From Nitrospirales bacterium (lineage in GTDB: Bacteria; Nitrospirota; Nitrospiria; Nitrospirales; UBA8639): 64,000 bases of DNA. The notes beneath the pieces are model-generated. The model ran no database searches, had not been told where the DNA came from, and saw only the letters and a program-made list of their open reading frames with translations. Shown here piece after piece: positions 11,281-53,400 of this stretch (the stretch's first letter is position 1; each line of letters starts with the position of its first letter). Made by a program: the position numbers and the translations under genes. The stretch lies in NCBI GenBank assembly GCA_021604005.1, contig BQIV01000014.1, positions 1 to 64,000 on the forward strand. The letters run 5' to 3'.

Positions 11281-13248
11281 TTAAAAATTCCATACCATCT
11301 TCCCATAGATACTTCGTTGAACTTCGTTCGCTTGCGTTTGCAAAAAACTCGGCACCATTTCCGGATGATGCGTATCAAGAAGGTTGAGGCCCGCAATCGA
11401 CAATTCGAGTGATTCCCATGGTCTCCAACCTAACCGGACATCAAGTTCCCAATATCCGGGGACGGACAGGCTTGGCAGTCCATCAACGAATCGCAACCAG
11501 GAGTCCAACTCGACGTTATGAGGTAAACTCAGCAGCGAACGAAGTGACGCTTGATGGTGAGGACTCCCCTGTTCGTCACGGTCAGGGAATCCGAACGCTC
11601 CACGCTCGGTCTCGACATCAATATTCAAATATGTATACGCACCACGGATCTGCCAGGATTCGAGAATTTGAAGATTGCTCGCCACTTCGACCCCATGCGT
11701 TCGCGCTTCCTTATTATTGGAAAACTGGAATGTCGGCAATGGTGACAACGCAATGCGTTTCGAATCGATCAGGTTGTCATAGAGATTGTAAAACGCGATC
11801 ACATCAATAGAGAGTTCAGAGATAGGCGTCAAGCGATACCCGGCTTCAAATGCGATAAGACTCTCAGGGCCTAATCGTCGATTGCCCATTAACCTGACTG
11901 GCACTGTCAGTGCAGGCGGATTAGGCGGTTGCACAATTGCCCCATTGTCGGCCGCACGAGACGGCAGTCTCACCGCCCGAGACGCGGCAAGCCACCAGGC
12001 ATGTTGAGGCACGGGTTGCCAAAGAACTCTGCCGCTCGGCTGGACTTCGAATCCGGTGAAATCATTGTGTGAAATTTTACTCCCAACGGTAAGTGTGGCC
12101 TCATCATCAAACAGACGTATCTCATCTTGAATGAATCCGTTGAGGACTCGAAACGATTTCGATCGAGGTGCCGGGGCTATGGTGAAACTCGTTCGAAAAT
12201 CATCAAACCACTGTCGATAGCCTATCCCCCAAACAACGTCTTGATTCAAGGGCAGCGCGACCCGATGCTGGAGCTCGAAGTCCACGGTATCGATGGTCAT
12301 CTCGACAACGGTTTCTTTTCGATAGAAACGGTCATAAAAAAACTGAAACGACAGGTCGGAACCTTCTGAAATCCGGCGATCCCATTTGAGAAGAATATGC
12401 CCGCCTCGCATCTCGACGTCTTCGTCCACCGACCGAGCAAACGCAGGAGCCGTAAGTGTCGGCAGCCTCACTCGTTGCCCAACATCACCGCTATACAGAC
12501 CGCCCTCGGTCATCAATGTATTGTGCGCATCGATATCCCAATCGCTCCGAAAGCCCCCCCGGAGGATACGGCCATCATCATGTGCACCGGCTTGATTAAA
12601 TTCAGTGCTCTCATGTAACGATTTCACAAATAACCGATAGGACAGATCATCACCGACCTTGCCCCCGTACCGAGCCCCCACAATAGCTTCCTCAGAACCA
12701 CCCAGCCCACTCACCAATCCGCCTTGCGTCCGCTGCGTATGCTTCGTGATGATATTGATGACCCCATTGACGGCGTTCACTCCCCACAACGTCCCACCAG
12801 GACCACGAATGACTTCAATACGTTCAATGTCCTCCAGCAGAGTATCGGTAGTCTCCCAAATCGTTCCAGCAAAAAAGGAGTTATACACATTACGGCCATC
12901 GAGCAACACCAGCATTTTATTGCTGAACCGGCTATTAAATCCTCTTGCTGAGATAGCCCATTTGTTATTATCCAGTCGAGCCACATGCAGACCCGGAACC
13001 ATTCGCAACGCTTCAGGGATACTTGTCACCCCAGACCGTCGAATGTCATCCTGTGTAATCACGAAAATCGCCGCCGCCGACCCAGAGAGTTTTTGTTTCT
13101 TCTTCGACACCGACGTGACCTCGACATTCATGAGTTCTTCCAAACTCAAGTGCGTGAGATCATTCGGAGCCGGCAGGCTATCCGCTCCCCACACACGTAC
13201 AGGCAATAGGGCCAACACAGCCACGACAAGGAGCACCCCCTGACGCAT
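11281..13248 (-). CDS. TonB-dependent outer membrane receptor
   Basis: About 655 residues. A Sec signal (ending RVWGADS) precedes a plug domain with typical motifs: VTSVSKKKQ, ALRMVPGLHVARLDNNKWAISARGFN, VLLDGRNVY, IERIEVIRGPGGTLWGVNAVNGVINIITK. The C-terminal beta-barrel ends in an aromatic residue (KMVWNF), as outer membrane barrels do. GGAGG precedes the ATG at 13248. It imports an unknown ligand with TonB energy. Because it is followed by a YfiR-like protein and a hybrid kinase in the same direction, it may have a sensory role as well as transport. No specificity can be read. Confidence 0.93.
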   Translation of the reverse strand: MRQGVLLVVAVLALLPVRVWGADSLPAPNDLTHLSLEELMNVEVTSVSKKKQKLSGSAAAIFVITQDDIRRSGVTSIPEALRMVPGLHVARLDNNKWAISARGFNSRFSNKMLVLLDGRNVYNSFFAGTIWETTDTLLEDIERIEVIRGPGGTLWGVNAVNGVINIITKHTQRTQGGLVSGLGGSEEAIVGARYGGKVGDDLSYRLFVKSLHESTEFNQAGAHDDGRILRGGFRSDWDIDAHNTLMTEGGLYSGDVGQRVRLPTLTAPAFARSVDEDVEMRGGHILLKWDRRISEGSDLSFQFFYDRFYRKETVVEMTIDTVDFELQHRVALPLNQDVVWGIGYRQWFDDFRTSFTIAPAPRSKSFRVLNGFIQDEIRLFDDEATLTVGSKISHNDFTGFEVQPSGRVLWQPVPQHAWWLAASRAVRLPSRAADNGAIVQPPNPPALTVPVRLMGNRRLGPESLIAFEAGYRLTPISELSIDVIAFYNLYDNLIDSKRIALSPLPTFQFSNNKEARTHGVEVASNLQILESWQIRGAYTYLNIDVETERGAFGFPDRDEQGSPHHQASLRSLLSLPHNVELDSWLRFVDGLPSLSVPGYWELDVRLGWRPWESLELSIAGLNLLDTHHPEMVPSFLQTQANEVQRSIYGKMVWNF

Positions 13249-13330
13249 CACTTGGACCTCCAGTCATACACACACCAATGACACGTAGAACGTGTCTGTC
13301 GACATGTCGTCATTCGATTCATTTTCACTT

Positions 13331-13420
13331 GAACACCTATAATCAAAACACCATCAACTATCTGAGACCAGCGTCGGTTGCCTTTCAAGAGTCCTTTCAC
13401 ACACACCTACCGTGTTCAAG
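13331..13420. repeat. 90-bp dispersed repeat, copy B
   Basis: Begins GAACACCTATAATCAAAACA and ends CACCTACCGTGTTCAAG. It is followed directly by copy C, so the repeats are in tandem here. It aligns with copy A at 5628-5717. Confidence 0.75.
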
Positions 13421-13502
13421 AACACCTATCATCTGAAAGAACATCATCAACTGCCTGAGCTCAGAGTAGGTTGCCTTCCAGAAGCAATCCGTCGCACACC
13501 TA
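13420..13502. repeat. 90-bp dispersed repeat, copy C (interrupted by the MITE)
   Basis: Begins GAACACCTATCATCTGAAAG and runs to CGCACACCTA. Its expected last 11 bases, CCGTGTTCAAG, lie at 13851-13861, on the other side of the MITE at 13503-13848. Comparison with uninterrupted copy B (CACACCTACCGTGTTCAAG) shows that the MITE entered this repeat at a TA dinucleotide. Confidence 0.75.
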
Positions 13503-13848
13503 TAGTTTTTTAACTTTTCATGAAGACCTATTCATCTGGGAAGTCCTGGTGTCAGAAGAGCTTTTGCTCAAGAACATTACTCATTCCCTTATTCGTATGC
13601 ATTTCTTATGGTCCTAGGCATTTGCATTCTGCCGGGGTTCGTCCCAGCAGCCGAAACCCTTTTGTTTCGGCAAAAGGACCCAAAACCATTGACGCCCAGG
13701 CCAGGCTCATCGGATGAGCTGAACCCCGGTTAGTGGGGCGGGCTAACTCGCTGCGCTCAAACAAGCCCGCCCAGTATGAGAGGCGTTCACTCAGCAGACT
13801 GGCCTGCAGGCGTCAGGTCATATATATTGAGAAAAAGTTAAAATACAA
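13503..13848. mobile_element. 346-bp MITE with TA target duplication (empty IS110 target)
   Basis: The ends are imperfect inverted repeats: left TAGTTTTTTAACTTTTC, and right (complement) TTGTATTTTAACTTTTTC. TA flanks both sides, and removal restores an intact 90-bp repeat. TA duplication suggests mobilisation by an IS630/Tc1-type transposase. There is no coding capacity. A 9-bp stem (GGGCGGGCT 13736-13744, AGCCCGCCC 13764-13772) encloses a 19-nt loop. In the second copy of this MITE (51675-53068) an IS110 element sits in that loop; here the loop is intact. Confidence 0.75.
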
Positions 13849-14225
13849 TACCGTGTTCAAGCACACATCCCATCAACATGAATACCCGTCAATTTTTCAT
13901 TGTCACGGAATATTTCAGCACCACCATGTCACACACACGCACACAGTGAGATCCTCCCTTCTCTCACACATGCAGGGTTTCTCATTATTGCTATCGGTTG
14001 AGACCCGATGTATCTGAATGATCAGAATAAAAATAGTTGTCTATGCAGCCAGAAGTACGGAAGTTGGAGGGAGGAGAAAGAGTGGCATGTCAATTCGATT
14101 CAACTCGACTCAGCTCAAAAAGATGACGAGACGGCGTCTCATTTCGAACCTGTTTCACACGAGAGACATGATCGACAATAAGCCATCAGCTAGTCAACCT
14201 AGGCTTTTGACATTTCTGTTATAGC

Positions 14226-14380
14226 GGTGACAGTTATACCGAAACGATACAACACCATCTTGCACAAGGGCACCTTCCAATACGTGAGAGAACACGTCCA
14301 GGTTTGTCAGGCAATCCAAGCGGGTATAACCTTCCGGTATTTGGTGTTGGGGCTACCACGTTGAAAGTCCTTAGGACTTA
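14226..14380. repeat. 155-bp dispersed repeat (copy 1) with a conserved open frame
   Basis: The complement aligns closely with 53096-53245, sharing ACTTTCAACG, CGGAAGGTTATACCCGCTTG, CTCACGTATTGGA and TGTATCGTTTCGGTATAACTG. In the plus frame it reads SYTETIQHHLAQ, then PIRER, NPSGYNLP and LKV, then a stop. The same frame is open in the other copy, yet no start codon precedes it here. It may be a decayed gene end or a structured element. Confidence 0.65.
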
Positions 14381-14464
14381 ACTGAGACATATTTGGATTC
14401 GCGATAACAGACAACACAGGGCGTACCCTGTGTTTGCGACAACATGAACATATGGAACGGCACG

Positions 14465-50754: not shown

Positions 50755-50845
50755 ATAATGTGAAGCGTTGTTCGTGAAGTGTGAAGCGTAGGAAGAATAT
50801 TCTAACTTCTTTTTCACCAAATACGTTTCACGAAATAGGCTCAAA
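50755..50845. repeat. Heptamer-family repeat array
   Basis: GTGAAGCGTTGTTCGTGAAGTGTGAAGCG and ACGTTTCACGAAATAGGC words between the hypothetical gene and xth. Confidence 0.75.
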
Positions 50846-50852
50846 AAAATTG

Positions 50853-51674
50853 ATGAAAATTGCCACTTTTAATGTGAACTCCATTCGTCGGCGGCTGCCC
50901 ATTGTACTGGACTGGCTGATGAAGAAAAAGCCGGACGTGCTATGCCTACAGGAAACTAAAGTTCAGGATGCGGACTTTCCCTTGGACGCGTTCTCTGACA
51001 CAGGCTATCACATTACCTTTCGAGGTATGAAATCTTACAACGGCGTAGCCATCCTCAGTCGAACACCACCAGAGGATGTCTCCTCCGGATTCGGAGATAA
51101 AGAAGAACATCACGACGATCCGATGCGCCTCATGCGAGTCGTGATCCAAGGCATTCCAATTCTGAATACCTATGTGCCTCAAGGTTTCTCGATCGATTCA
51201 CCAAAATACCAATACAAGCTTGGCTGGTTTCGACGGCTCACTCAGTATTTTCAACAGCACTTCTCCCCCCAAAAACCTGCAATATGGTGCGGTGACATGA
51301 ATGTCGCCCCTGAACCCGTCGATGTTCATCACCCAGACAAGCATCTCAAACATGTCTGTTTTCATGAGGACGTTCGAAACGCGTACGAACATGCGCGCGC
51401 CTGGGGATTCGTCGATGTCTTTCGCGCACATTACCCCAAACGCCAACAATTCACGTTTTGGGATTACCGGCAACCCAGTGCATTGGAGAATAATCGCGGG
51501 TGGAGGATTGATCACATCTTGGCCACACCGGTCCTCGCACCGGCTTGCACCAAAGTATCGGTTGACCTCGGTCCACGTAGAGCGGAAAACCCTTCAGATC
51601 ATACAATCTTGTGGGCAGAATTCTCGAGGTATAGCGAATCCAAATACGTTCCAGCTGAGGTCAATCAACTATAG
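50853..51674 (+). CDS. xth: Exodeoxyribonuclease III
   Basis: 273 residues from MKIATFNVNSIRRRL. AP-endonuclease/exonuclease III motifs: CLQETKVQDADF (metal Glu), WCGDMNVAPEPVDV, GWRIDHILATP and NPSDHTILWAEF (catalytic Asp-His). It acts in base-excision repair. The final 14 residues (YSESKYVPAEVNQL) lie past the usual family end and are encoded by a CTATAG-class repeat; the stop TAG is the edge of the following MITE, so the insertion has replaced the native end. Confidence 0.94.
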   Translation: MKIATFNVNSIRRRLPIVLDWLMKKKPDVLCLQETKVQDADFPLDAFSDTGYHITFRGMKSYNGVAILSRTPPEDVSSGFGDKEEHHDDPMRLMRVVIQGIPILNTYVPQGFSIDSPKYQYKLGWFRRLTQYFQQHFSPQKPAIWCGDMNVAPEPVDVHHPDKHLKHVCFHEDVRNAYEHARAWGFVDVFRAHYPKRQQFTFWDYRQPSALENNRGWRIDHILATPVLAPACTKVSVDLGPRRAENPSDHTILWAEFSRYSESKYVPAEVNQL

Positions 51675-51773
51675 TTTTTAACTTTTTCAGAGTACCTATG
51701 CTCTTACGCCTGCAGGCCAGTCCGTTGAGTGAACACCTCTCATACTGGGCGGGCTTGTTTGAGATTCTATGGT

Positions 51774-52590
51774 TTATGTCAAGCCTCGTGTGAGGCGGGC
51801 CGGGTCAAACATGGTCTGATAGCGGTGAATGGACCAAGCCGCCCGGGCAATTTTCCGCGCGAGAATCACTAAGGTGGCCGTTGAGCTCCATCCTTGGATG
51901 CGATACGAGTCATAGATGGGTTTCCAGACTTTGGTTTTGACGGCGGACATGGCGGCATTCAAGAGCAACCGGCGCAATTCGGCCGGGCCTCGTTTAGACA
52001 AGCGCCGTCGCCCGCTCTTCTGCCCCGAGTCTTTGGCTCGAGGGTCTAACCCGGTAAAGGCGACAAAGGCATCGGCATTGTGGAACGGCACTCGCTCTAA
52101 AGTATTGGTGAGGCTCATCCCCACCAACGGGCCGACGCCCACAATGGTCTCAACTCGTTGTTGGGCTTGTTGATGGGGTGGGGACTGGGCCTCGACGGCG
52201 AATCAACCGATCCACCTGCCGTTGCTGGGCGGTTGGGGGCCTGTAGGCGCGCAACCCGGCGTGTTCTTGAGCGATCATCCGAGCGAGCAACGTGGCATCG
52301 ACTCGGTCGGTTTTCGCCCGAGCCCCCAGAGCTTTGGCATAGTACCGCGTCTCCATCGGCTTCAAGAGATAAACGGTATGGCCATGGGCATGCGCCAGAT
52401 CGGCCAGCAGCTCATGATACGGACCGGTCGATTCGAGACCAATCCGGCTCCCGGCCGGTAATGTCTTCAGCCAGGCGCACAAGGCGCTGCGCTGATTACG
52501 AATCTGCTGAACCGGCCATCGTTGATCCGCACTGGTCACGACGACGGTGTCTTTGGCCACATCGACTCCCACATTCAAAACGGGTTGCAT
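51774..52590 (-). pseudogene. IS110-family transposase, frameshifted
   Basis: The N-terminal half (MQPVLNVGVDVAKDTVVV, GLESTGPYHELLADLAHAHGH, KTDRVDATLLARM) is a DEDD RuvC-like domain. The C-terminal half (GVGPLVGMSLT, FVAFTGLDPRAKDSGQKSG, RRLLLNAAMSAV) is the Transposase_20 domain with its catalytic Ser region. They lie in different frames; the break falls near 52165-52195 beside a run of Cs (CCCCACCCC on the minus strand), where one base appears extra. The total length equals that of an intact IS110 transposase. A sequencing error cannot be excluded. Confidence 0.88.
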
Positions 52591-52624
52591 ACACGTTGCC
52601 TCCAAAAGTAAAGTTGCCACAATG

Positions 52625-52800
52625 GGGTGGGCCACACCAACGTAAGCTTGTGTCCAAATCGGCGGTCATGAGTGATGCCGCGAGATTCTTCATCGACGTT
52701 GAGGGTGTGGATGGGAGAAGTCTCAAACCGTCTGTCCAGAAGCTGGCAGATGCGCAGCGATGTCCCTCCACCCCCGGTCCCTCTTAGCTTCTCAAGAATG
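52625..52800 (-). ncRNA. Predicted IS110 bridge RNA with readable target and donor guides
   Basis: The non-coding end upstream of the transposase. Minus-strand guides: TCGCTGCGC (52752-52760) equals the left half of the empty target plus core base; GTTTGAG (52722-52728) is the complement of the right half with core (CTCAAAC). CTGCCAG-CTT-CTGG-A-CAG between them forms the stem of the target-binding loop. Further on, AGAATCT (52683-52689) equals the IS end with core, and ACAAG (52649-52653 region on the complement of CTTGT) pairs with the other IS end. This is the order expected of a bridge RNA. Ends are approximate. Confidence 0.75.
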
Positions 52801-53095
52801 AAACGAAAAGACCATACAAGCGCAGCGAGTTAGCCCGCCCCCCAAAATGGTGTTCAGCTCATCCAATGAGCCTGGCCTGGGCGTTCATGGTTTTGGGTCC
52901 TTTTGCCTTCACAACAAAGGGTGCACCCTTCAGGATGCGACAAACAATACACTCGGCCGCCGGGAGGAACCCCGGCAGAGAACAAAAACCAAGGACGATA
53001 AACAGTGCATGTGATGAATGAGGGGATGAGAATGAACAATGTTCTTGAGTAGAAGCTCCTCTGACACTATAGCGAATCTCAATTCGGTCCAGCTA

Positions 53096-53245
53096 ATGCC
53101 TAAAGACTTTCAACGCGGTGTCAAAACCTTCAAACATCGGAAGGTTATACCCGCTTGGATTGACTGACCATGCTTGACGTTTCCTCTCACGTATTGGATA
53201 GCAAATTTGCACAAGCTGGTGCTGTATCGTTTCGGTATAACTGAG
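53096..53245. repeat. 155-bp dispersed repeat (copy 2) with a conserved open frame
   Basis: Matches the complement of 14226-14380. On the minus strand the frame reads SYTETIQHQLVQ, PIRER, NPSGYNLP, LKVF then stop, as in copy 1. It belongs to a possible 76-residue frame (53093-53323), which I do not call as a gene because copy 1 has no start. Confidence 0.65.
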
Positions 53246-53400
53246 TCGGCTATAGCTCAGCGGTCCAACGCTGGAATTAGCGAAAGTTATAGCCTTACCT
53301 TTGAGCGTATGCTTGCACGACATGCGTGATTGCGCTGTGTACGTGCGGTCAATTCAACTACACGTTATGCGGTTTCGCTATATTTGAAACGACGATAATC
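53244..53400. repeat. CTATAGC-class repeats
   Basis: GGCTATAGCT (53248) and AGTTATAGCC (53285) form an inverted pair. From 53316 CACGACATGCGTGATTGCGCTGTGT to TTTCGCTATATTTGAA aligns with 58427-58512. Another eroded set of miniature elements. Confidence 0.55.

Follow-up and report, generated by a model that had tools for sequence, protein, structure and literature searches.

A TA-duplicating miniature inverted-repeat element with a hairpin core in the draft genome of a Nitrospirales bacterium

The window, that is, the whole stretch of DNA that was analysed, comprises 64,000 nucleotides at the start of contig C14 (BQIV01000014.1) of a 4.7-Mb Nitrospirales genome assembled in 92 contigs (GCA_021604005.1). 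It contains an ORF for a TonB-dependent receptor, a diverged tandem repeat with units of about 90 bp, a 346-bp element that splits one of these units, and the two parts of a second, disrupted copy of the element. The features are as follows.

11281-13251, minus strand: ORF for a TonB-dependent receptor of the outer membrane, with the element ~250 bp upstream of its start
13331-13419, no strand: intact ~90-bp tandem unit, holding the empty site (TA at 13408-13409)
13420-13500, no strand: second tandem unit, portion left of the insertion
13501-13502, no strand: left TA of the target-site duplication
13503-13848, plus strand: the element (probable MITE), 346 bp, module type A-short-R0
13503-13531, plus strand: left terminal inverted repeat (TIR)
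13532-13628, plus strand: left module, type A
13630-13820, plus strand: predicted structured core; same-family relatives have the core without the TIRs
13821-13848, plus strand: right TIR
13849-13850, no strand: right TA of the target-site duplication
13851-13861, no strand: final 11 bases of the split tandem unit, CCGTGTTCAAG
51670-51763, minus strand: right part of the second, disrupted copy (TIR and part of the core)
52819-53067, minus strand: left part of the second, disrupted copy

The intact tandem unit reads CACACC-TA-CCGTGTTCAAG at the undivided site, and the split unit reads CACACC-TA, the 346 bp, and then TA-CCGTGTTCAAG. An earlier note on this DNA had described a 346-bp unit that splits a copy of the 90-bp repeat, with TA on either side, 11 bases of the copy beyond it and the neighbouring repeat copy as the empty site, all of which agrees with the present analysis. 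Its count of repeat copies, labelled A to C, has to be amended, since two units were detected, together with no more than the 14 initial bases of a third. The imperfect inverted ends that it had noticed were likewise recovered as TATAGTTTTTTAACTTTT and, on the reverse strand, TATTGTATTTTAACTTTT, with 16 of the 18 outer positions in agreement.

The host carries dozens of dispersed copies of the element. A DNA search of the genome gave 56 matches (40 of 97 candidates scored), and the 18-base end motif occurs 64 times with up to one mismatch, compared to once for the reversed control, and 105 times with up to three mismatches, compared to 22. The 56 matches and the counts of 64 versus one rule out chance as the origin of the ends. 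As is characteristic of MITEs, the unit is short, non-coding and bounded by terminal inverted repeats, and its copies are many and dispersed, with searches using its modules giving 79 clusters on 50 contigs, some of which are pieces of one copy. Both termini are present in 25 clusters of 323-753 bp, where the value of 753 takes in a neighbouring module; the unit length across the copies ranges from 323 to 714 bp. The copies lie mostly between ORFs, 41 of the 79 clusters lie at contig ends, and no autonomous transposase was found between paired ends in the copies examined.

Alignment of the genome copies to define the ends, as the earlier note had proposed, yielded 24 intact copies with flanks. 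Their TIRs are alike and TA is present at both edges in 22 of them, L083 and L084 each missing it on one side. It had been set beforehand that the TA duplication would be given up if the flanks proved to be part of the repeat; this was rejected, as the 24 copies have differing flanks at their edges. A search of all collected sequence with the joined flanks of these copies, one TA being kept, resulted in four empty sites, all gapless at the junction with one TA kept in the joined flanks. Two of them are clean, retain the TA and lie in diverged tandem repeats, namely that of the window copy (75% identity over 107 query bases) and that of L021 on contig C21 (81%). The third, for L013, is another repeat on C41 (70%, TA kept), and the fourth, for L014, is another repeat within the window (73%, TA not kept). 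Together, the empty sites argue well for duplication of a 2-bp TA on insertion, which is the target duplication of IS630/Tc1-mariner elements. The repeat at L021 (1141-1246) is a direct repeat of ~106 bp, with the element in one unit, as in the window.

The second copy in the window (51670-53067) is interrupted by an IS110-type insertion with DEDD_Tnp_IS110 and Transposase_20 ORFs, which has entered the core's G+C-rich hairpin at its loop. The TATAG end of this copy supplies the stop codon TAG of an exonuclease/endonuclease-family ORF at 50781-51674. Another repeat, TTATACCGAAACGATA, stands alone at 14216-14400 and at about 53080-53330, and is also nested inside copies of the element, for example in the congener G003 (L048). 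Lone interior ends at C28:33817 and C60:12748 were considered as autonomous copies and rejected, as they belong to a separate miniature family of ~104 bp, of which a pair at L079:3518 and L081:3566 is 87% identical and has the ends TATAGTATTTTAACTTTCA and TATAGTGGTTTAAATG.

An effect of the element on the TonB-dependent receptor gene is a conjecture, because no promoter-like site is present at its ends; outward sigma-70-like promoters were rejected, with one found versus 1.6 expected. Comparison with the upstream region of an orthologous receptor was also abandoned, as a different receptor-like gene lies directly upstream in L042 and no flank is shared there. A preferred gene context was rejected on the 24 copies, for which rough ORF calls gave no clear pattern: 20 have ORFs on both sides, of which nine and six are co-directional, four convergent and one divergent.

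The earlier note had taken the TA duplication to indicate an IS630/Tc1-type mobiliser, and had suggested a search for an IS630 gene with the same terminal repeats. No transposase gene flanked by the element's own ends was found in the host, the genus or the order. In profile searches with HTH_Tnp_IS630 (PF01710) and DDE_3, the former matched 14 of the 97 genomes searched and none of five genomes (the host and four congeners, two of which bear the element). The only DDE_3 match in the host is a 35-position fragment beside the IS end TATAGTCATTCC, a type unlike the ends of the element which also bounds the IS630 of L146, leaving the host draft genome with no cognate IS630 transposase in these searches. 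Among the congeners, DDE_3 matches strongly (1.3e-29) only in G002 (L230), where a match to the element is absent.

TATAG marks the termini of complete or near-complete IS630s in the order, a candidate end pair being present in part of 30 loci. Complete IS630s in relatives have TATAG in common with the element and differ from it in the remaining end sequence, as exemplified by TATAGTCATTCC in L146, TATAGTAATTTGAA in L149 and L154, and TATAGCYAAGCC in several loci of genus g12; the L149 protein matches DDE_3 (6e-33) and HTH_Tnp_IS630 (9e-24). The TATAGTNTTTTAACTTTT pattern is found in four of 235 genomes, namely the host, its congeners G003 and G004, and G005 of a sister genus, the only exact match outside the genus. 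In G005, TATAGTATTTTAACTTTTAAC lies ~50 bp before an IS630 remnant ORF, the first part of which matches PF01710 (HTH_Tnp_IS630, E=1.9e-8). As the IS630s of relatives have TATAG ends and the end in G005 adjoins an IS630 HTH, we infer that an IS630-family transposase was most likely the mobiliser. The proposal of an IS630/Tc1-type mobiliser therefore retains the TA duplication, the TATAG termini and the G005 remnant in its favour, and falls short in that no transposase with these ends was found.

The mobiliser could be hidden in assembly gaps, since copies often coincide with contig breaks (41 of 79 clusters) and four of 20 small contigs (C72-C74 and C76-C92) read as N. MITE-type ends are present in four of these 20 contigs (L110, L112, L114 and L116), and the set was rejected as the location of the mobiliser because it holds no long paired element. 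On contig C85, L104 has a long ORF that by eye resembles a eukaryotic retroelement reverse transcriptase and is perhaps assembly contamination. Viral contigs were also rejected as a source: 11 contigs with a stricter motif (one more half-fixed and one more fixed position), which served as a specificity control, have no IS630-like neighbour or start and no convincing inverted partner.

The core (13630-13820) extends beyond the element. Matches were found in 39 of 97 genomes, host included, and a phylum sample gave 14 matching genomes out of 295, none of them from outside the family, when two candidates were scored for each genome. In other genera of the family the core lacks the element's ends: this was seen in the flanks of the retrieved matches, and the end motif is missing from the g9 genomes scanned for it and from all of these relatives in the 235-genome search. 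Of 40 places in the host where the core was located (40 of 70 candidates scored), 38 share a cluster with a typed terminus; of the remaining two, the one on C60 lies 355 bp from an end motif and that on C33, at a contig end, has no end in the surrounding sequence. No Rfam match was obtained in 13200-14450 at E up to 1. Single-strand folds of the core are better than those of shuffles (z -4.8 and -5.1). A 45-pair structure, examined on 25 sequences, gives 94.5% paired cells, and 13 of its pairs are changed on both sides, compared to 32-47% and 3-8 pairs for slid control structures; the structure was derived from the same alignment as the covariation count. The double changes are spread over several helices, and most of them set the own genus apart from relatives and so represent few independent events. 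Judged from these alignments, the core is a family-wide, G+C-rich predicted hairpin repeat with covariation, and its structure is likely maintained by selection. A further-reaching proposal, which we regard as doubtful, is that the core would be an independently selected structure, as RNA or cruciform DNA, adopted as cargo by an orphan IS630-type MITE; the MITE would then carry a regulatory or nucleoid structure from place to place while exchanging modules, and would have stayed polymorphic through gene conversion among its dozens of copies since the transposase disappeared.

Alignment of 16 copies revealed variants of each part. The left module is of type A, B or C, where B corresponds to A plus an insert of ~96 bp that has TATAGC at its borders. 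The hairpin of the middle part is either short or longer, and the right module may or may not include a ~95-bp segment with CTAG at its borders. Of the 79 clusters, 26 were typed for all three modules, with unclassed left modules omitted (for example, C29:6329 and C43:34292). Nine of the 12 possible combinations were seen among these 26 copies, and three pairwise tests gave no association between modules (P 0.26-0.42, with small numbers at n=26). Within 26 core sequences, linkage among 12 variable sites is weaker the farther apart they lie (permutation P 0.011), and all four combinations are present at 73% of site pairs, which together suggest that recombination may have taken place between copies. 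Chimeric assembly and repeated mutation are serious alternatives as causes of the mosaic. Short-read assembly, if used here, may in particular have joined different copies, an artefact that would concern the mosaic and not the element itself, given that 41 of the 79 clusters lie at contig ends and that units of 323-714 bp exceed typical short reads. Against this, many of the mosaic copies are internal to contigs and differ in their flanks, and modules B, C, long and R96 turn up with constant boundaries in differing combinations. An artefact is the less likely explanation, though one of appreciable probability.

The aligned genomic copies, the second empty site and the absence of coding content support a MITE that duplicates TA. 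Our favoured reading, with a probability of about 85%, is that this MITE is a non-autonomous DNA transposon of the type moved by IS630/Tc1-mariner transposases. An IS630-family transposase acting in trans would have bound the 18-30 bp ends, excised the MITE and inserted it at TA, and its gene would since have been lost, or be missing from the assembly. The payload would be the G+C-rich hairpin repeat kept family-wide, and the copies may afterwards have swapped modules or gained nested insertions.

The IS427 group of IS5 also duplicates TA, and a transposase of this or another TA-duplicating family could have mobilised the unit, in keeping with the lack of an IS630 gene with these ends in the MITE-bearing genomes. 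However, the TATAG termini are common to the MITE and the IS630s of the order, and the sole matching end outside the genus adjoins an IS630 HTH, which makes another family improbable. It is more improbable still that the copies are an old repeat spread by homologous recombination rather than transposition, with the TA edges lying within the repeat: the copies do look recombined and TA is nearly constant at their edges, but the two clean empty sites keep one TA with no further trace, and the flanks of the 24 intact copies are unlike at the edges.

Assignment to the MITEs makes this a new family of a known kind, an ordinary element with an unusual payload. What look new here are the apparently modular copies and the family-wide covarying hairpin core that relatives have without these ends. 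The family provides a documented TA-duplicating MITE with empty sites for a group that is Nitrospirales-like by its nearest named genes, and for which a limited search of the literature on Nitrospira MITEs led to work on a bioreactor community. Should long-read genomes bear out the mosaic and the covarying core, it would follow that a MITE can capture a conserved structured repeat and that MITE diversification continues without the transposase.

Among known elements, the Correia elements of Neisseria have ends that also begin TATAGT, with a TIR sequence that differs from that of the MITE beyond the first bases. In excerpts of two reports (PMC2229807, PMC2649163), the Correia elements, or NEMIS, likewise have TA at the termini, TIRs of ~24-26 bp, a folded core, versions with and without an internal segment and a mobiliser that is not known, in a unit shorter than the MITE here. 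RUP of Streptococcus pneumoniae, with IS630-Spn1, is also small, non-coding and present in many intergenic copies, with inverted ends resembling those of an IS630 and insertion at TA, as described in parts of PMC2229807 and PMC3049150. The same parts give RUP as a simple 107-bp AT-rich unit with its IS630 partner in the same genome, whereas the MITE here measures 323-714 bp, contains a G+C-rich hairpin core and modules that can be exchanged, and is missing its partner. The pneumococcal BOX elements are also composite small repeats of variable length (67-637 bp) with a TIR and a target duplication; according to the portion of PMC3049150 on them, their variation lies in the number of boxB units, whereas the copies here exchange entire left, middle and right modules for alternative ones. 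TIMEs, the Tn3-derived miniature elements, differ in their Tn3-type 38-bp ends, 5-6 bp duplications and usually single copy, but, in the sections of PMC4133298 that describe them, they are also mosaic and non-autonomous, with foreign modules between their TIRs.
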